Below are positions 6,336 to 39,244 of a stretch of DNA of 64,000 nucleotides, piece by piece; within the stretch, counting starts at the first letter, position 1, and each line of letters opens with the position of its first letter. Below the pieces are notes generated by a model. The model had not been told where the DNA came from and made no database searches. It saw only the letters and a program-made list of their open reading frames with translations. Both the position numbers and the translations under genes were made by a program. The DNA comes from Parapedobacter defluvii (lineage in GTDB: Bacteria > Bacteroidota > Bacteroidia > Sphingobacteriales > Sphingobacteriaceae), in NCBI RefSeq assembly GCF_014642075.1, contig NZ_BMIK01000024.1, positions 1 to 64,000 of the forward strand, read 5' to 3'.

Positions 6336-6409
6336 TGCGCTTGAAGGGAGTCGAACCCCTAACCTCCTGATCCGTAGTCAGGTGCTCTATCCAGTTAAGC
6401 TACAAGCGC
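6336..6409 (-). tRNA. tRNA-Arg (anticodon ACG)
   Basis: On the minus strand a 74-base cloverleaf can be folded. The acceptor stem GCGCTTG pairs with CAAGCGC, with discriminator A at 6336. The D-arm is AGCTTAACTGGATAGAGC. The anticodon stem CCTGA/TCAGG encloses loop CTACGGA with anticodon ACG. The T-arm is GGGGTTCGACTCCC. No CCA is encoded. ACG (wobble-modified to ICG) reads CGU, CGC and CGA. Confidence 0.95.
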
Positions 6410-11700: not shown

Positions 11701-14311
11701 AGCATCCATGCTGTCGTTTACGTCTGATAAAGAAACCTATCAGGCGGGTGAGGAAGTGACCTTAACCATTCCCTCTTCGGAAGGTGGCCGCGGCCTTATC
11801 AGCATTGAAAACGGTAGCCGGGTACTGCAAAGCTGGTGGATCAAAACCCAACAGGGACAGACGGTTTATAAATTCAAGGTGACCGAAGAGATGGCACCCA
11901 ATGTATTTGTAAACGTTACCCTGCTACAACCCCACGAGCAGACCGCCAATGACCTCCCCATCCGGATGTACGGCGTAATTCCGCTGCTGGTCGAAAATCC
12001 CAAGACCGTCTTAAATCCCCAGATCAGCATGGCAGACGTACTGCGTCCGGAAACCAAATCGAGCATCACCGTATCCGAATCCAATGGGAAAGCGATGGCG
12101 TATACCATTGCCCTGGTAGACGAAGGGCTGCTCGACCTCACGCGGTTTAAAACACCGGATCCGCATGCCAGTTTCTACGCACGTGAAGCACTTGGCGTCA
12201 AATCATGGGATCTATTTGATCAGGTGCTGGGCGCATGGGGAGGTGATCTGGAACGCATTTTAAGCATTGGTGGCGACGGGGAAATCGACCGGAATGTAAA
12301 CCCGGCGAAAGCCAACCGCTTCCAGCCCGTGGTCAAATTCCTGGGGCCTTTCACCCTCCGCAAGGGCGGAAAAAACAAACATGACTTCACCCTGCCCCAA
12401 TACATTGGTTCGGTACGTGCCATGGTAGTGGCCGGACAGGATGGTGCTTATGGCTTTGCGGAAAAAGCGGTTGCCGTGAAGAAGCCGCTTATGCTGCTGG
12501 CTACCCTACCCCGTGTAATCGGCCCCGACGAAACATTCAGGCTGCCGCTCACTGTGTTTGCCATGGAAAACAACATCAAACAGGTAAGTCTCGAAGTGAC
12601 TGCCACCGATGGACTAATCGTGCAAAACGGCAAGCAGACCCTGACCTTCACGCAGCAGGGCGAACAAATGGCCTATGCCTCCATAAAAACCGGCAACAAT
12701 ACGGGTGTTGGCAAATTGCGCGCGGTTGCAAAAAGCGGAAATGAGACGGCGGTGTACGAAGTTGAAATCGACATCCGTAACCCGAATCCGTTCATTACCT
12801 CGGTTGAAAAGGCCGAAATCAATGGTAACTCAGCGTGGCAGCGGGACATCGCACCACTGGGTCCCGGCAACGGCAATACCGCCATGGTGGAAATCTCGTC
12901 ATTGCCGCCGATTAACCTCAGCAAACGGCTCAATTTCCTGATCCGATATCCGTATGGCTGCGTGGAGCAGGTGACATCCAGTGTATTTCCGCAGCTCATG
13001 CTCGATCGGTTGGTCGAACTGAAAGAGCAGGAAAAAGCGGCCGTAGACAGAAACATCAAGGCCGGTATCAACCGACTGCGGAATTACCAATTGGCTAACG
13101 GAGGTCTTGGTTATTGGCCGGGTGCAAACGAAGCCAATGAATGGGGCACCAACTATGCCGGGCACTTCCTACTGGAAGCGCAGGCCAAGGGATATACGTT
13201 ACCGGCTGGATTCCTGGAAGCATGGCTGCGCTATCAGCGGAATACGGCTCAAAATTGGGCGCCCGACCAATATAACTGGCGAGGCGGGGATCTGGTACAA
13301 GCCTACCGGCTTTACCTGCTTGCGCTCGCAAAGGCACCCGAACTGGGGGCAATGAACCGACTCAAGGAATTCCCTTATCTATCGGATGAGGCAGCCTGGC
13401 GACTCGCCGCAGCCTATCAGCTTGCCGGACAGGGCATTGTAGCCAACCAACTGGTTAAAAACCGTCCCACCGAAGGCAAACCCTATGAAAATGCCGGATA
13501 TACTTTTGGATCGGCACTGCGTGACCGTGCCATGATCCTGGAGACCCTGGATTTAATCGGGCGTCGGCAAGAGGCCGAAAAAGTATTGTTTGCCGTAGCC
13601 GCCGGATTGGATAATGACAGTTGGTATAGCACGCAGACTACGGCGTATGCCTTGTTAGCCATCGGCAAATTCGGTGGCCAGAGCGCAGGCAAGAATAACT
13701 TCACCTATACGCTTAATGGTAAGTCAAACACCATTTCAGCAACTACGTATGTATATCGCATTCCGATTGACTTCAGCAATAAAAGCAATCAGATACAGGT
13801 GCAGAACTCAGGTAACAACAAGCTGTACGTGCGCGTTGTGCGCGAAGGCCAGCTTCCTGCCGGGGAAAATCCACCCCTAAACAACAACCCCGAATTGCTA
13901 ACCATGAACGTACGGTATACCGACCGGGAAGGAGAAGAAATCAACCCCGGGGCGTTGACACAGGGTACCGATTTCATTGCGGAGGTTACATTGAAGAATA
14001 CCGGAAGTATGGGGATGTATGAACACATGGCACTTGCCCAGATATTCCCTTCCGGTTGGGAAATTATCAACACCCGGCTCAATGACAATGAATCGGCTCT
14101 TCGCTCGTCGCCGGCTACCTATCAGGATATCCGTGACGATCGTGTACTTACCCATTTCAATATCCGGCAGCAGGAGACGCTTACCTACCGCGTATTGCTC
14201 AATGCATCGTATGTAGGACGTTATTTCCTGCCCGCAGTAAGTGTAGAAGCGATGTACGATAACCGGATTCAGGCCCTCACGCCAGGGCAATGGGTGGAAG
14301 TGGTGGAATAG
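8744..14311 (+). CDS. bacterial alpha-2-macroglobulin with intact thioester motif
   Basis: A 1855-aa exported protein of the bacterial alpha-2-macroglobulin family, thought to trap proteases in the periplasm. The N-terminal hydrophobic segment ends at LTWQC (Cys27), a relaxed lipobox. An SbsA/Ig-like N-terminal region is followed by macroglobulin domains. MG2 has YGERGVWRPGDSLYLSFI near residue 635. The central A2M domain carries ALVDEGLLDLTRFKTPDPHASFY. The thioester motif is PYGCVEQVTSS (Cys1406, Gln1409), followed by the alpha-helical toroid. An insertion at residues ~454-505, bounded by two Cys, is extremely rich in Asp, Glu, Tyr and Ser. pbpC, the common partner in proteobacteria, is absent; the next gene is convergent ddl. 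An 18-bp duplication overlaps the stop codon. Confidence 0.93.
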   Translation: MNNANSMPRMSFSWIVLAIVVALTWQCRGPAETNAGNTAFAKYVEGYTTGVISRESTIRLRLASQVNTFQETNVEETRKLFTIHPAVKGKTRWIDARTVEFIPEKQFDPSKEYQVTFDLGKVIEVPDDLKNFIFDFKIIDPSFSIELDGLKSQTSSAPDLMKLTGTLSFADIETPENIEKILEATAGSNRLTIKWQHNAQTRTSSFTIDSLEKRKEAYGISLKWDGSPIKSKRSDQKNIEVPAKGVFKVLDIRAVHEPEQFVLVQFSDPILVAQQLDGLIGISGVSDARYTIDGSEVKVYAPDRLEGDYAIAVNEGIENISGKKITAAYSANVNFENRLPSVSIPGKGTILPGSGRLTMPFEAVNLRAVDVTIVKIYENNVPQYFQNTYDSKYELRRVAKPVVQKTIALDADKSVNLRKKNRFSLDIDNLLKTEPGAIYRVLIGFRHSYSVYPCGDADSAEIEDAENEQSSYYYSDDIDEDDEFWSRYNSYYPYDYDWNERDNPCHSAYYTTERWASRDMLASNIGLIAKRGNDNSVTVVATDILTTQPLQGVEVKLLDYQQQVIQTATTDNEGFARIEATRKPFMLIASKNDERGYLKLDDGSTLPLSRFDVGGDVVQKGIKGFIYGERGVWRPGDSLYLSFIMENQSANLPAEHPVTFELYNPKGQLTKRMVESKQTNGFYTFKTKTETTAPTGNWLAKVSVGGATFQKTLKIETVMPNRLRITLDFGNRKVLNKNSNTPVALSAKWLFGADVQNLKARVEAVVTPVKTTFPDYKPYTFDDPTRTFTSESQVLFDGTLNQQGNAAFPADITATNGAPGMLRASFTTRVFEPGGNFSIDNISMPYSPYASYVGLRTPEGDRLSGMLLTDQDHSVDIVDVDATGKKISGTRRVQVEFYKIRWQWWWNQEEEYLGNFTQDQYNQLLKKETITLNNGSGKWNIRVNYPDWGRYLVRVVDLESGHATGKTLYIDWPGWAQREQQSNPTEASMLSFTSDKETYQAGEEVTLTIPSSEGGRGLISIENGSRVLQSWWIKTQQGQTVYKFKVTEEMAPNVFVNVTLLQPHEQTANDLPIRMYGVIPLLVENPKTVLNPQISMADVLRPETKSSITVSESNGKAMAYTIALVDEGLLDLTRFKTPDPHASFYAREALGVKSWDLFDQVLGAWGGDLERILSIGGDGEIDRNVNPAKANRFQPVVKFLGPFTLRKGGKNKHDFTLPQYIGSVRAMVVAGQDGAYGFAEKAVAVKKPLMLLATLPRVIGPDETFRLPLTVFAMENNIKQVSLEVTATDGLIVQNGKQTLTFTQQGEQMAYASIKTGNNTGVGKLRAVAKSGNETAVYEVEIDIRNPNPFITSVEKAEINGNSAWQRDIAPLGPGNGNTAMVEISSLPPINLSKRLNFLIRYPYGCVEQVTSSVFPQLMLDRLVELKEQEKAAVDRNIKAGINRLRNYQLANGGLGYWPGANEANEWGTNYAGHFLLEAQAKGYTLPAGFLEAWLRYQRNTAQNWAPDQYNWRGGDLVQAYRLYLLALAKAPELGAMNRLKEFPYLSDEAAWRLAAAYQLAGQGIVANQLVKNRPTEGKPYENAGYTFGSALRDRAMILETLDLIGRRQEAEKVLFAVAAGLDNDSWYSTQTTAYALLAIGKFGGQSAGKNNFTYTLNGKSNTISATTYVYRIPIDFSNKSNQIQVQNSGNNKLYVRVVREGQLPAGENPPLNNNPELLTMNVRYTDREGEEINPGALTQGTDFIAEVTLKNTGSMGMYEHMALAQIFPSGWEIINTRLNDNESALRSSPATYQDIRDDRVLTHFNIRQQETLTYRVLLNASYVGRYFLPAVSVEAMYDNRIQALTPGQWVEVVE

Positions 14312-14364
14312 TGGTCAGTGGTGGAATAGTGGTCAGTGGTCGGTGGTCGGTGGTCGGTGGTGAG
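14301..14364 (+). repeat. 18-bp duplication plus heptamer (TGGTCGG) array at the macroglobulin stop
   Basis: TGGTGGAATAGTGGTCAG occurs twice in tandem (14301-14318, 14319-14336). The first copy contains the stop codon of the macroglobulin gene. Three exact heptamers TGGTCGG (14337-14357) and one TGGTGAG (14358-14364) follow. The same heptamers recur at 16589-16616. Confidence 0.85.
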
Positions 14365-14381
14365 GGGTCACCGACCACCGA
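14347..14381. terminator. hairpin between convergent macroglobulin and ddl genes
   Basis: TCGGTGGTCGGT (14347-14358) is the exact reverse complement of ACCGACCACCGA (14370-14381), with an 11-base loop. The right arm overlaps the last codons of ddl. No T-tract follows, so terminator function is inferred from the GC-rich stem and convergent setting. Confidence 0.45.
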
Positions 14382-15375
14382 TCAACGCCTGTTCAATCAG
14401 CTCGCCGTAAAATGCGGTCTCGGTCATGCCCGCGGCCCGCACTTGCTGGGGAATGAAACTTTGGGCAGTCTGTCCGGGCACGGTATTTATTTCGATGAAA
14501 TAGAAGTGGTCCGTCTCCCGCTCCAGGAAATAATCGATGCGTACCATACCCTTACAGTTCAAGCGGACGTAAATCGCTTTTACCAATCGTTCCACACGCT
14601 CCCGTTGTTCGGATGTCAGGTCTGCAGGTGTTATTTCTTGGGTCAGACCGGGCACATACTTGGCTTCAAAATCGAAAAATTCGCGTTCGGTAATGACTTC
14701 TGTTGCCGGTAATACGACAATTTCGCCCGATCGGCGATATACCCCTACTGAAAATTCACGCCCTTTTACAAATTCTTCAACGATCACCTGTTTGCCGGTA
14801 TTTTCTGCGTTGAATGCCTTCTCAATGGCATCGGCCAATCCATCTTCGGCATTAACCTTGGTCATCCCGATGCTGCTTCCACCGGCGTTGGGTTTGACAA
14901 AGTAAGGAAGTGATAGTTCACGGCGTACCAGATCTATGGCATCTGCACGTTCAGCATCAAACAACTGGACGGATTTTGCCAAATACAGTTCGGGAATGCC
15001 CGCCAACACCGCCTTGGTATATGCCTTGTTCATGGTCAATGCTGAGGTAAGCGCATCGCAGGAGGTATACGGTAGTCTTACCATATCAAAATAGCCCTGG
15101 AGACGTCCGTCCTCTCCGGGCGAACCGTGCACCATAATGAACGCCAGATCAAAACGGATAACCTGGCCATCCATGGGCAATGTAAAATGATCCCGATTGA
15201 TTACATATTTGACGCCATTATCGCCCACGTGGAACCAGCTATCTGTCGTGATGGTGATTTTATAAATATCGTATTTGGATTGATCCAATTGCCCGTACAC
15301 AAATTCCGCACTCTTAAAAGAAACTTCGGATTCTCCGGTATATCCGCCGGTTATCAAGGCTATTTTTGTCTTCAT
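14368..15375 (-). CDS. ddl: D-alanine--D-alanine ligase
   Basis: A 335-aa cytoplasmic ATP-grasp enzyme making D-Ala-D-Ala for peptidoglycan precursors. Visible motifs: KIALITGGYTGESEVS at the N-terminus, FIMVHGSPGEDGRLQGYFDM, LPYTSCDALTSALTMNKAYTK, LPYFVKPNAGGSSIGMTKV (ATP-grasp), VKGREFSVGVY and the metal-binding FIEINTVPGQTAQSFIPQQ. The start at 15375 gives MKTKIALI; a longer frame from 15426 adds an atypical hydrophobic leader that overlaps the promoter. Divergent from the PASTA gene across the 11-bp phased array and convergent with the macroglobulin gene. Other division-cluster mur genes are not here. Confidence 0.95.
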   Translation of the reverse strand: MKTKIALITGGYTGESEVSFKSAEFVYGQLDQSKYDIYKITITTDSWFHVGDNGVKYVINRDHFTLPMDGQVIRFDLAFIMVHGSPGEDGRLQGYFDMVRLPYTSCDALTSALTMNKAYTKAVLAGIPELYLAKSVQLFDAERADAIDLVRRELSLPYFVKPNAGGSSIGMTKVNAEDGLADAIEKAFNAENTGKQVIVEEFVKGREFSVGVYRRSGEIVVLPATEVITEREFFDFEAKYVPGLTQEITPADLTSEQRERVERLVKAIYVRLNCKGMVRIDYFLERETDHFYFIEINTVPGQTAQSFIPQQVRAAGMTETAFYGELIEQALIGGR

Positions 15376-15382
15376 GATTCCG

Positions 15383-15413
15383 CAAACATAGACAACCCAC
15401 TGTATAAATACAA
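15383..15413 (-). promoter_or_regulatory. promoter of ddl (TTG-N20-TATGTTTG)
   Basis: On the minus strand, TTG (15413-15411), a 20-base spacer and TATGTTTG (15390-15383) match the Bacteroidota consensus. The -7 box ends 7 bases before the ATG at 15375, so the mRNA should have almost no leader. Confidence 0.6.
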
Positions 15414-15434
15414 TACCCGCTAGCATTGCTTGTC

Positions 15435-15676
15435 GCTATTCTTTCGCTACCCTTAATTTACTCCTTATTTACCTTTTATTTACCCCTTTGGTAAAGAACT
15501 GGTAAGGGATTGGTAAAGAATTGGTAAGGAAATGGTATAGCGGAGGTAAGGAATTGGTAAAGAAATGGTAAGATCAAGGTAGTGGATTGGTAGCCGAATA
15601 GTAAGCAAGAATTAAGGCAGTACTAAGCAAAAGGTAAGCAACAGGTAACAAACAGGTAACCGAAAGGTAAGCCATC
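15435..15676. repeat. strict 11-bp-phased array of 22 units between divergent promoters
   Basis: An NNTA core recurs every 11 bases without a break from 15435 to 15666: GCTA twice, TTTA three times (TTTACC orientation), then GGTA at 15490 and nine more positions, AGTA, ATTA and ACTA, and GGTA four more times. The usual unit is GGTAAGnAAnT. The orientation flips at an inverted repeat TTTACC-CCTTT-GGTAAA (15479-15495). A period of 11 is not a multiple of 3, so this is not coding. It fills the space between the -33 boxes of ddl and of the PASTA gene. The whole 393-base stretch from 15427 to 15819 contains no gene. Confidence 0.9.
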
Positions 15677-15689
15677 GTACACGACACGC

Positions 15690-15713
15690 AAACTTGCATA
15701 TCAAAGCAAGTTT
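15690..15713. promoter_or_regulatory. inverted repeat overlapping the PASTA promoter
   Basis: Perfect 8-bp arms AAACTTGC (15690-15697) and GCAAGTTT (15706-15713) with an 8-base spacer. It immediately follows the 11-bp array and covers the -33 TTG of the PASTA-gene promoter. A candidate operator. Confidence 0.4.
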
Positions 15714-15724
15714 ATCTAAGTTTG
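15694..15724 (+). promoter_or_regulatory. promoter of the PASTA gene (TTG-N20-TAAGTTTG)
   Basis: TTG (15694-15696), a 20-base spacer and TAAGTTTG (15717-15724) match the Bacteroidota consensus. The leader before the ATG at 15820 would be about 90 bases. Confidence 0.55.
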
Positions 15725-15819
15725 TCGCCTTATCTCCTGTTAATTTGGGGAGGTATAAAACTATGGCGCTAATATTGCTAAACAACAGCTGAATTGCATG
15801 TATCCGCCAATTTGATAAG

Positions 15820-16584
15820 ATGAATATGGTAAAATTCTTCCAGTATCTACGAACAGAAACTTTCCGAAGAAATCTCATTGGAGCGTTGATTGGGCTGACC
15901 GTTCTTTTTCTAATCATTGTATTCGGCCTTCGTCAATACACCCGACATAGTGAATCTGTCCCCGTACCTGAACTCAAGGGGCTTCTGATTGAGGAAGCCT
16001 TAAAAAAACTGGAAGCCCTGGGGTTTGAGTATGATTTAGATTCCATCTATCAGGTGGATGCGAAACCCGGTCTGGTAATCGAGCAGGATCCGGATCCGAA
16101 TACCAAAGTTAAAAAAAACCGAACCCTGTACCTTACGATCATTACACGTACAGCCCCCGAGGTTGCATTCCCCGAATTATTAGAAAAAACATTTGTAGAG
16201 GCCCGTGCGATATTAAACAGCTATGGCCTTAAATTGGGCGATACCACCTACATTCCAGATATTGCGAGGGATGTGGTGCTCGATGTAAAATTCGGTGGGG
16301 AACGACTTAATGCCGGACGTCCAATCCCAAAAGGATCAACTGTAGACCTGGTGCTAGGCAATGGGAAAGGAGCCAGTGAAGTTCAGGTACCTGATTTAAT
16401 CGGACTTACCCTGGAACAGGCCCGTTTTGCGCTGCAAGGCAATTCACTGACCTTGGGTACCGTCAATTACATGGGGTTGATTGCCGACAGCTTGAGCGCA
16501 ACGGTTATCTCCCAAACTCCAACCCCCGAAGATCCGGCAGTTAGCATCGGTACTCCGATTAATATTGCGCTTGCAAATCAGTGA
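15820..16584 (+). CDS. PASTA-domain membrane protein
   Basis: A 254-aa protein with a short cytoplasmic tail, one membrane segment (residues ~20-38, LIGALIGLTVLFLIIVFGL) and three periplasmic PASTA domains. The domains start near VPVPELKGLLIEEALKKLEALG, VAFPELLEKTFVEARAILNSYG and VQVPDLIGLTLEQARFALQGN. PASTA domains bind peptidoglycan stem peptides or beta-lactams. Here there is no kinase or transpeptidase domain, as in other Bacteroidota PASTA proteins. Divergence from ddl and closeness to mltG fit a cell-wall role. A heptamer array starts five bases after its stop codon. Confidence 0.9.
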   Translation: MNMVKFFQYLRTETFRRNLIGALIGLTVLFLIIVFGLRQYTRHSESVPVPELKGLLIEEALKKLEALGFEYDLDSIYQVDAKPGLVIEQDPDPNTKVKKNRTLYLTIITRTAPEVAFPELLEKTFVEARAILNSYGLKLGDTTYIPDIARDVVLDVKFGGERLNAGRPIPKGSTVDLVLGNGKGASEVQVPDLIGLTLEQARFALQGNSLTLGTVNYMGLIADSLSATVISQTPTPEDPAVSIGTPINIALANQ

Positions 16585-16588
16585 TTGG

Positions 16589-16616
16589 TGGTGAGTGGTC
16601 GGTGGTGAGTGGTCAG
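16589..16616 (+). repeat. heptamer array TGGTGAG/TGGTCGG/TGGTGAG/TGGTCAG
   Basis: Four uninterrupted 7-bp units of the pattern TGGTnnG begin five bases after the PASTA stop codon. Three of the unit variants also occur behind the macroglobulin stop at 14.3 kb. An in-frame GTG for mltG at 16595 lies inside it and is rejected as a start. Confidence 0.8.
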
Positions 16617-36857: not shown

Positions 36858-39156
36858 GACATTTGTAAGGCTAAGTCATCTGCTGCCAGCCGCCCTGTTT
36901 TTCATCGGCTGTAGCAATATCAAGTACCTGCCAGAAGGAGAAAATCTGTATGTGAAGGGCGAAGTAGAAATCGAAACCGACACCATACCCGACCGGTATA
37001 TCGCTCCGCTGACGGCGAGTCTGGAAGACCTGCTTCGGCCCAAACCAAATACCACGATTTTAGGGATGCGCCCGCAGCTATACCTTTATAACATTGCCGG
37101 AGAACCACAAAGTGACCGGGGATTCCGCAATTGGTTAAAAAACAAAGTGGGGCAAGCACCGGTATTGCTCAGTGACGTCAACCGCGAATACAATGAAAAT
37201 GTACTCCGTAACCGATTGGAAAATATCGGCTTCTTCAATGCCGAAGTTGCATCGGACACTACGATTAAAAACCGTAAAGCGACTGTGACATACACGGCTA
37301 AACCTCACGTCATTTATCGGATCAATTCGGTTACGTTCGAAGTGGATAGCAGCGAACTGGGCAAGGCGATTAAAGCTACCGAACCCGAATCGCTCCTGCA
37401 GCCGGGACGTCCCTACAACTTGGACAATATCATAGCCGAACGTGAACGCATCGATTGGGCCATCAAGAATGCAGGTTATTATTATTTCAGTCCGGACCAC
37501 CTGATTGTGGAAGTAGACAGTACCGGCAGAGATCACCACGTAGACCTCTATGTAAAGGTCAAAGAGGAAACTCCGGCAAAAGCGAAACAGCCTTATTACA
37601 TCAACAACATTTATATTTATCCCAACTACAAGCTTACCGAGGGCGGATACCAACGTGCAGATTCCACTCAAGCCGAACGCTATCACGGCTTATACTTCAT
37701 CGACCCCGAACACACATACCGGCGGTTTGCATTGGCCAATGCCATCATTTTCTACCCCGGTGAGCTCTATACCCGTGGCGATCAATCCCGAACCCTCCGG
37801 CAACTGGTGGGAATGGGAAGTTTCAGTTTTGTACGCAATGAATTTGTAGACGTTGATTCGGGCAAGACGAATCGGCTGGATGCTTACTATTACCTCACAC
37901 CTATGCCCAAGCACGGTCTCCGCACCGAGCTGTTAGGTAAAACTGCGGCGGTATACAACGGTTCGGAAATCAATGTAGCCTGGCAGCATCGCAATGCATT
38001 CAAAAGCGCTGAACTGCTAACATTTACCGTGTTTGGTGGATTTGAAACCCAAACCGGCGGGAACGTCAACCTTAACTCCAGCTTCTACCGCTACGGGGCA
38101 GAAGTCAGTCTTTCCTTTCCGCGCATGATCGCTCCGTTTAACTGGCAGCCCACACGGAAGTATGTGCCACGTTCCATCTTTCAAGTAGGCTACGAGTACC
38201 TCAATCGCCGTACCGCCTATAGCCTCAATTCCATGCGTTTTTCCTTCGGATACCAGTGGCAGGAAAATCCAGAGAAAACGCACGACTTGAAAGTACTCGA
38301 AGTGGCGTATGTGCAACCGAGAAATATCACCGAGTCCTATCAGGCCATGCTGGATACAGTTCCGCCGCTCCGCCACGCCATTGAACCGATGTTCACCTTT
38401 GGTCCCATTTACAATTACACCCGCACGAACACCATGAATGCGGACCTCAAGCACACGTATTACTTCAAGGGCGGGTTGGATTTATCTGCCAATCTTTACG
38501 GAATTATCCGTGGTGCGAATGTCCAAAAAGGCAGACAATATCAGATTTTAAACGCCAACTTTTCGCAATATATCAAAATGGAAGCCGATTTCCGGCATTA
38601 CATGAAACTCGGGGCAAATGCTACTTGGGCCTCCCGCGCAATGGCCGGTTTTGGATATTCCTACGGAAATTCCACACAGCTCCCCTACGTTAAGCAATTC
38701 TTTATGGGTGGCCCCAATGGATTGCGTGCGTTCCGTGCCCGTGCGCTGGGACCGGGCTCTTATACGCCGGAATTCTACGGCGAAGACAATTTCTTTGCCG
38801 ACCAAACCGGTGACATTAAGTTTGAGCTGAACACAGAGTACCGGGCCAAACTTGTAAGCATCCTCCATTGGGCAGCATTTATAGATGCAGGTAATATTTG
38901 GCTTCAACGTTCCGACCCCGAAAAACCGGGAGCTGCATTCAGCCGCCATTTCATCAACGAAATGGCAGTCGGTGCAGGCTTGGGACTTCGCTTTGATCTG
39001 AGTTTCTTGATACTTCGAACCGATTTAGCTATGCCGTTGCGTATTCCTTACCGGCCCAAAGGCGAACGTTGGGTATTTGACGAGATCAATTTCCGCAACA
39101 GCAACTGGCGGCGGAGCAATCTCGTATTTAACCTCGCCATCGGATATCCTTTTTAG
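36850..39156 (+). CDS. tamL: TamL: lipid-anchored Omp85/BamA-family outer-membrane protein
   Basis: A 768-aa Omp85 protein. A type II signal peptide ends FFIGC (Cys21), so the POTRA end is lipid-anchored, the hallmark of the Bacteroidota TamL variant of TamA. POTRA domains occupy about residues 30-340. The C-terminal 16-strand barrel includes the Omp85 loop-6 pattern near FMGGPNGLRAFRARALGPGSY (RGF-like) and the last strand SNLVFNLAIGYPF ending in Phe. It works with the overlapping tamB upstream. A TGGATAR heptamer array starts five bases after its stop. Confidence 0.93.
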   Translation: MSKTFVRLSHLLPAALFFIGCSNIKYLPEGENLYVKGEVEIETDTIPDRYIAPLTASLEDLLRPKPNTTILGMRPQLYLYNIAGEPQSDRGFRNWLKNKVGQAPVLLSDVNREYNENVLRNRLENIGFFNAEVASDTTIKNRKATVTYTAKPHVIYRINSVTFEVDSSELGKAIKATEPESLLQPGRPYNLDNIIAERERIDWAIKNAGYYYFSPDHLIVEVDSTGRDHHVDLYVKVKEETPAKAKQPYYINNIYIYPNYKLTEGGYQRADSTQAERYHGLYFIDPEHTYRRFALANAIIFYPGELYTRGDQSRTLRQLVGMGSFSFVRNEFVDVDSGKTNRLDAYYYLTPMPKHGLRTELLGKTAAVYNGSEINVAWQHRNAFKSAELLTFTVFGGFETQTGGNVNLNSSFYRYGAEVSLSFPRMIAPFNWQPTRKYVPRSIFQVGYEYLNRRTAYSLNSMRFSFGYQWQENPEKTHDLKVLEVAYVQPRNITESYQAMLDTVPPLRHAIEPMFTFGPIYNYTRTNTMNADLKHTYYFKGGLDLSANLYGIIRGANVQKGRQYQILNANFSQYIKMEADFRHYMKLGANATWASRAMAGFGYSYGNSTQLPYVKQFFMGGPNGLRAFRARALGPGSYTPEFYGEDNFFADQTGDIKFELNTEYRAKLVSILHWAAFIDAGNIWLQRSDPEKPGAAFSRHFINEMAVGAGLGLRFDLSFLILRTDLAMPLRIPYRPKGERWVFDEINFRNSNWRRSNLVFNLAIGYPF

Positions 39157-39160
39157 ATAA

Positions 39161-39244
39161 TGGATAATGGATAATGGATAATGGATAATGGATAGTGGAT
39201 AGTGGATAATGGATAGTGGATAATGGATAGTGGATAATGGATAG
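39161..39244 (+). repeat. heptamer array (TGGATAA/TGGATAG), 12 units
   Basis: Twelve exact tandem 7-bp units start five bases after the tamL stop. The first four are TGGATAA; the rest mix TGGATAG and TGGATAA, differing only at the last base. The tail at 39251-39278 (ATCAACTGTCAATTATCAATTATCAACT in two overlapping parts) runs in the opposite sense and contains the 16-bp element shared with 5660-5675. Confidence 0.9.

Follow-up and report, generated by a model that had tools for sequence, protein, structure and literature searches.

The array and its place between ddl and a PASTA-domain gene

The window, by which we mean the whole stretch of 64,000 nucleotides that was analysed, contains an array of 22 units of 11 bp between ddl and a gene for a PASTA-domain protein (Table 1). 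All 22 units carry the dinucleotide TA at positions 3 and 4, with no slip. This is the longest run of TA at 11-bp spacing in the window, and such runs did not exceed five in 200 simulated 64-kb sequences drawn from a first-order Markov model with the dinucleotide steps of the window. The strict 11-bp phasing that an earlier note on this DNA had described was thereby confirmed. Across spacings of 5 to 24 the runners-up were a TA run of 13 at spacing 7, which belongs to another array, and one of 11 at spacing 22, which arises because every second unit of the present array is counted. Tandem Repeats Finder recovered the array only partly (15488-15572 and 15624-15672). A coding repeat was considered and rejected: minus-strand ORFs run through arrays (in the window, 15612-15917) because the 11-nt unit has no stops on the minus strand.

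Table 1. Features at the ddl/PASTA site (positions in the window)
Feature	Position	Strand	Remarks
ddl, D-Ala-D-Ala ligase	14368..15426	-	Flanking gene, outside the element; likely start 15374 (MKTKIALITGG)
TAnnTTTG-like -7 box, ddl side	15390-15383		44 bp from the array, directly before the likely ddl start
Whole array	15435-15676		242 bp, 22 units of 11 bp; arms unequal (5 vs 17 units)
Left arm	15435..15489	-	Five reverse-sense 11-bp units (three TACC, one TACT, one TATT): GCTATTCTTTC GCTACCCTTAA TTTACTCCTTA TTTACCTTTTA TTTACCCCTTT
Dyad TACC-N5-GGTA	15481..15493	.	TA-to-TA distance 11 bp, phase intact
Right arm I	15490..15599	+	Ten GGTA units, variable filler
TA-only block without GG	15600..15632	+	Three units: AGTAAGCAAGA ATTAAGGCAGT ACTAAGCAAAA
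Right arm II, array end	15633..15676	+	Four GGTAA units
TAnnTTTG-like -7 box, PASTA side	15717-15724		40 bp past the array end
PASTA-domain protein gene	15820..16584	+	Flanking gene, outside the element

The PASTA gene of the window has a counterpart in all nine Parapedobacter genomes compared, which include the window genome (G000) and genomes matching P. composti, P. koreensis, P. pyrenivorans, P. luteus and P. indicus (G002, G003, G004, G005 and G006, respectively). By contrast, a GGTA array of the window type at the ddl/PASTA site was found in G000 only and was absent, as judged by eye, from all eight congeners. Upstream of the PASTA gene of G006 a few 11-bp units with the word TTCGG were seen by eye, and the seven remaining congeners showed neither a GGTA array nor TTCGG units at that place, again by eye. 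Boxes resembling TAnnTTTG, which we take to be the -7 consensus at the ddl and PASTA promoters, are present on the ddl side in 9/9 genomes and at the PASTA position in 8/9, the exception being G001. Since the array is absent from all eight congeners while the promoter boxes are mostly kept, a locus-specific insulator role is unsupported, as is the function tied to ddl and the PASTA gene that had been proposed in the earlier note. On this comparison the array is a guest at the ddl/PASTA site.

A dispersed family with fast turnover of sites

Taken over all genomes compared, the sequences identify the array as a member of a dispersed family of intergenic repeats that belongs to the Sphingobacteriaceae and has relatives in the Chitinophagaceae. 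The window genome holds four such arrays in total, the other three adjoining genes for an NmrA-like protein, sufD and ileS, and six of the nine Parapedobacter genomes (G000 and G002-G006) have GGTA arrays, which G001, G007 and G008 do not carry. Five or more GGTA words spaced by 11 bp were found in 38 of the 399 genomes of the family that were sampled, spread over 5 of 25 genera (pattern matches, a minority of them read individually), whereas a reversed control pattern was matched in two of the 399. Related arrays are present in Pedobacter and Niastella. The window array had no match in the plasmid and phage collections searched. We found no description of these arrays in the open-access literature, including PMC7500135 (on Parapedobacter genomics) and PMC12393610, both as excerpts (here and below, the part of a paper's text that was available to us); they may be described elsewhere.

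Arrays from Parapedobacter were sampled at 22 of at least 27 loci in the genus. We further read three arrays of G022, eight of Pedobacter and Niastella, and arrays from fifteen more genomes, some of which represent the same Pedobacter species. Scans of wider collections gave at least 191 loci; among those listed, 43 had runs of at least eight units, and 18 were read by eye. Several of the 43, six of them viral contigs, have units that hardly differ from one another and resemble plain repeats.

The earlier note had named absence from this locus in close relatives as a sign of a neutral satellite. The array is indeed missing from the ddl/PASTA site of the relatives; on the other side, a GGTA array next to ileS is shared by five of the nine genomes, so that the expectation held at one site and failed at the other. 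We take the family to be old and the turnover of its sites to be fast.

The neighbours of the other arrays are unrelated to one another (ileS, a gene for an Fe-S biosynthesis protein, sufD, clpC, dnaK), and the genes flanking 22 arrays are divergent in 8, convergent in 6 and co-directional in 8 cases (ORF calls only, some of them weak). These observations bear on the idea that the array is an operator with direct 11-bp half-sites for a regulator of the OmpR/PhoB or ribbon-helix-helix type that controls ddl and the PASTA gene. Direct units of 11 nt are the code read by Streptomyces PhoP, as at pitH2, where four units form the core and two more are weaker (PMC7866108, excerpt), and ParR of plasmid R1 requires at least two 11-bp repeats (PMC9426499, excerpt). 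Like PHO boxes, to which PhoP binds cooperatively, the arrays have 11-nt direct repeat units in series (PMC7866108, excerpt). However, a conserved promoter location with regulated genes, which also characterizes PHO boxes, was not seen, given the eight congeners without an array here and the mixed gene orientation. Moreover, PHO boxes comprise two to six units at promoters of phosphate genes, whereas the arrays run to a median of 21 units, include a dyad and have no constant gene context. With the array absent from all congeners, the -7-like boxes mostly still in place and unrelated genes next to the other copies, we regard an operator function as very improbable.

Arrangement of units and phase

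The arrays share an order of parts: reverse-sense TACC units lead to the dyad TACC-N5-GGTA, which is followed by GGTA units and, in half of the cases, by a block without GG and a second set of GGTA units. TACC-type units lie to the left of the GGTA run in 25/25 arrays (22 from Parapedobacter, three from G022), and the same order is found in the eight arrays of Pedobacter and Niastella. Array length varies between 10 and 31 units of 11 bp and, for the 22 Parapedobacter arrays, has a median of 21. In 11 of these 22, two GGTA blocks are separated by at least two units in which GG is missing, and the other 11 show no such block; at the matching place Niastella caeni has AGTAAGGCAGC TATAGGGAAAA TATAAGC.

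The earlier note had also held that spacing is kept while the filler varies, and this is borne out in the genus: TA is in place in 437 of 451 units of the 22 Parapedobacter arrays, and 275 GGTA units exist in 135 versions. A pyrimidine-purine step stands at unit position 3 in 98% of units. Outside GGTA itself, 1.11 bits of information fall on the fifth position and about 0.1 on the last two.

Measured TA to TA, the last TACC and the first GGTA are 11 bp apart in 21 of 25 arrays, and four arrays have 22 or 33 bp instead. A value was obtained for 20 of 26 loci in other genera (L080 and L309 being one array entered twice): 15 have 11 bp, the rest 12, 13, 23 or 33. Because the 11-bp step is kept across the dyad, the sites share one face of a straight double helix, a regularity for which a hairpin has no need. 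The earlier placement of all cores on one face of the DNA is thus supported, for a linear duplex, by a phase that is unbroken across the point of inversion. A one-base slip followed by at least three units was found in 3/25 arrays, namely both fetched arrays of P. indicus, a count that leaves out a third, single match at G006:C23, and one array of G022. In L054 a one-base slip lies beyond the part that was compared with L037.

Copies in G360, G394, G339, G375, G366, G410 and G324 show greater symmetry, having about five units to each side, and some of these genomes have additional phased units of another word outside the GGTA units. Such outer 11-bp units carry a TGTA word in L308, L326 and L327 (G339) and are GA..CTC-like in L306, L307, L324 and L325 (G394). 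Another 11-bp class, GGTACTAGAGA, was met in L303-L305 (G206), where the three arrays read have no left arm of opposite sense.

A sister class with a CG word

Sister arrays with the same 11-bp period use a CG word, TTCG/CGAA. One lies at the ileS site of G001 (TTCGAGTGCGC etc.), a place occupied by GGTA arrays in five genomes. Four TTCG words spaced by 11 bp were found in 9 of 41 genomes searched, that is, in eight of the nine Parapedobacter genomes and in G022, with only a single match each in G005 and G007; the reversed control was matched in two of the 41. Most of the 23 TTCG loci fetched change sense at the centre, from TTCG to CGAA. The centre distance, called in 19 of them, is 11 bp in ten, 32 bp in six, all from G001, and 22, 21 and 10 bp in one each. 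Common to both classes is a pyrimidine-purine step in a fixed word per 11 bp, not the word itself. The TTCG arrays L277, L278, L279, L282 and L283 (G000, G006) are preceded by a near-same stretch, TGGAGCCATCGCATGGGTCCAAACACATG, and these copies are therefore parts of a larger repeated context.

Growth and copying of arrays

Arrays of one genome resemble each other more in filler (identity 0.767, 34 pairs) than do unrelated arrays (0.723, 184 pairs) or arrays that were labelled as sharing a site in different species (0.714, 12 pairs), and no label permutation out of 2000 gave as much likeness. Three sources could each contribute to it: copying from locus to locus, a reader protein common to the arrays, and genome-wide base composition. 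Between units of one array the filler identity is 0.516, about half of the filler positions being different, and it is higher at lag 2 (0.571) than at lag 1 (0.527); units alternate in L036, L045 and others. Growth by slippage of one or two units is thus visible, and it keeps the phase without selection. The most similar pairs, L037/L054 and L044/L046, show a single gap each within the stretch of array compared, of 22 and 11 bp, respectively, and the flank of L037/L054 has gaps of 1-9. In the remaining seven of the nine pairs aligned, gaps within the array do not come in clean multiples of 11, in alignments that are unreliable for repeats of this kind. Strict phase between species is therefore not supported by the gaps; it is the phase within arrays that supports strictness. 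L044 and L046 (P. pyrenivorans) lie in a duplicated stretch of 1.6 kb with 93% identity that includes the array, and the two copies differ within the array by the 11-bp gap.

The alternating units, a length that varies between 10 and 31 units and the other gaps in seven of nine pairs would suit a neutral satellite that arose by slippage of 11 and 22 bp. Such a satellite would not be expected to keep the same order of parts at unrelated loci and in several genera, or to have opposite-sense arms in phase or two unrelated words with one period. Slips occur in 3/25 arrays although the filler identity within arrays is as low as 0.516. A neutral satellite is very unlikely to be the explanation.

A more serious competitor is a MITE-like, non-autonomous mobile palindromic repeat that has no host function and whose phased units are transposase sites or incidental structure. 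The copies are dispersed and intergenic, and homology is limited to the array for most unrelated-locus pairs among the matches listed. An imperfect palindrome of about 228 bp occurs exactly three times in the single complete contig of G375, the copies being 93% identical (E <=0.01). Nine near-uniform copies were read in G360, several of them bounded by TTCGGGGTTG and CAACCCCGAA. Turnover at the ddl/PASTA site and the presence of a different array class at the ileS site of G001 also fit a mobile repeat. On the other hand, all 6 matches in G375 (E <=0.01) come from these three copies in full, read on either strand; neither an isolated end nor a parental element with a transposase was seen, although ends of about 20 bp could escape detection. 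No target-site duplication was seen by eye, and a Y1 (REP-type) transposase, the one family searched for, was not found in eight of nine Parapedobacter genomes. Nor does a MITE need strict phase over the dyad, and a GGTA array next to ileS in five of the nine genomes also speaks against it. Palindromic copies are found in G375 and G360, unequal arms in Parapedobacter. Weighing these points, we consider a MITE-like origin rather unlikely.

REPs are short hairpins tied to a Y1 transposase. The arrays resemble REP/BIME elements of E. coli in being dispersed intergenic repeats with inverted parts and a possible role at the level of the chromosome. They differ in being helically phased arrays, whereas E. 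coli REPs are short hairpins, and in the lack of a detectable Y1 transposase in most genomes. A REP/RAYT system was rejected: no Y1 domain (PF01797) was found in eight of nine Parapedobacter genomes, and the single match in G007 contains three stops.

Hairpin formation, bending and gyrase binding

The arms are partly complementary, and the array might thus form a long hairpin, as a structured RNA or a cruciform, with the helix turn setting the 11-nt period. Across genera, arms pair better with their own partner (0.629) than with swapped ones (0.557; 17 arrays, one entered twice; 0/1000 permutations), and L037, L045, L054 and L055 fold better than shuffled sequences (z -4 to -7). The pairing excess across genera arises, however, because the copies of one genome share a design. 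Own arms pair no better than swapped ones in the 22 Parapedobacter arrays (0.652 vs 0.665) or when arms are swapped within each of four other genomes (0.817 vs 0.823; 19 arrays, p 0.83). The fold of the window array is ordinary (z -0.2 and 0.4), its centre retains an 11-bp step that a hairpin does not require, and no Rfam family besides a tRNA at 6336-6409 was found in the window. With arms that do not covary within the genus or within the four other genomes, hairpin RNA and cruciform were rejected as exceedingly improbable, and the repeat-derived RNA suggested in the earlier note, taken as a structured RNA, goes with them.

Its suggestion of a curved element fared no better, the bend of the window array being not unusual (z 0.2) in a wedge model. 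In the same model, z ranges from -4.3 to 0.6 in the 22 arrays of the GGTA class of sufficient length (two from G022) and from -1.8 to 1.3 in 23 of the TTCG class; bending is therefore not a shared feature.

Dyad symmetry, dispersed intergenic placement and a flexible pyrimidine-purine step per 11 bp in nearly every unit are compatible with a strong, DNA-wrapping gyrase site such as BIME-2 of E. coli or the Mu SGS. The gyrase motif spans 130 bp with two G/C-periodic arms and an aperiodic centre, and BIME-2 elements are enriched in cleavage sites (PMC6379681, excerpt); gyrases of three species favour a G/C periodicity of 10-11 bp (PMC12324340, excerpt). Strong gyrase sites (Mu SGS, Topo-Seq motif) and the arrays are alike in being long, two-armed and periodic turn by turn. 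The gyrase code, however, is a degenerate G/C periodicity of 10-11 bp, whereas the arrays have a fixed word and G/C at 5.5 bp: in GGTA right arms the amplitude is 0.245 at 5.5 bp and hardly detectable at 11 bp (0.058), in the TTCG class 0.116 and 0.066, respectively, and the 5.5-bp harmonic dominates right arms and whole arrays. There is no aperiodic 36-bp centre, the phase being unbroken over the dyad in 21/25 arrays and in register in the other four. The fixed GGTA word is more specific than a degenerate motif, and the window array has arms of 5 vs 17 units. We rejected a gyrase site because the G/C period does not fit, and hold it to be quite unlikely.

Predicted protein-binding strips

We favour, tentatively, the reading that the array is a dispersed, dyad-organized strip of helically phased sites, an architecture directly visible in the repeats, for a predicted sequence-specific protein whose existence and job we infer. 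Such a DNA-binding protein would occupy one word per helical turn, with binding starting at the dyad and extending cooperatively along one face so as to yield a nucleoprotein filament or a superhelical wrap. Altered specificity of the protein could account for the GGTA and TTCG classes. The strip may serve the chromosome as a whole (organization, segregation or the like) or may be selfish; it would not regulate ddl or the PASTA gene.

That ParR and PhoP act on 11-bp or 11-nt units indicates that proteins do read such repeats (PMC9426499 and PMC7866108, excerpts). Like the array, R1 parC consists of repeated 11-bp sites in series, and ParR-type proteins seed a solenoid in which the DNA wraps around protein (PMC9426499, excerpt). 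Unlike R1 parC, the arrays are chromosomal, occur several times per genome and have opposite-sense arms around a dyad. As far as the excerpts go, the accounts of ParR and PhoP are without this dyad, length or dispersal. Neither ParM nor ParR was found among ten flanking proteins of six arrays, and the window array had no plasmid match.

Several findings temper the protein-binding strip. Turnover at the ddl/PASTA site fits a selfish repeat equally well, and indeed this reading and that of a mobile palindromic repeat overlap. Shared fillers are explicable by copying or base composition, and growth by slippage preserves phase unaided. The gaps that are not multiples of 11 in seven of nine pairs, unreliable as the alignment is, speak against strict spacing, as does the distance of 32 rather than 33 bp across the centre of G001 TTCG arrays (6/19). 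The left arm is missing from the three G206 arrays, and the GG-less block from half of the Parapedobacter arrays.

A more far-reaching proposal, doubtful but possible, is a novel chromosomal nucleoprotein system of Bacteroidota in which a filament-forming protein would read dyad-centred strips of about 21 sites, with a single site to each helical turn, and in which the word may switch between GGTA (TpA) and TTCG (CpG) while the 11-bp geometry stays fixed, so that the strips of a genome would evolve together. A weak dinucleotide periodicity of 10-11 bp is found in many genomes, seemingly selected and of unclear role (PMC7537859, excerpt). The arrays represent a strong, discrete form of such periodicity, with fixed geometry and many letters free. 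If read by a protein, they would be a new means by which Bacteroidota organize or mark their chromosomes, with the two word classes as a natural test of joint change of protein and sites. If selfish, they would constitute a repeat class without a known copying mechanism.

Other repeats in the window

Two further kinds of repeat were noted in the window. Short related repeats, AGTGGTC and GGTGGTGAGTGGTC, lie at 14299-14370 and 16587-16614, near gene ends flanking the ddl/PASTA pair. Intergenic heptamer repeats are reported to be abundant in prokaryotes (PMC6344855, excerpt), and the TA run at spacing 7 belongs to a 7-bp tandem array of GATAATG at 39156-39243, with 12.6 copies and TA in phase 13 times.
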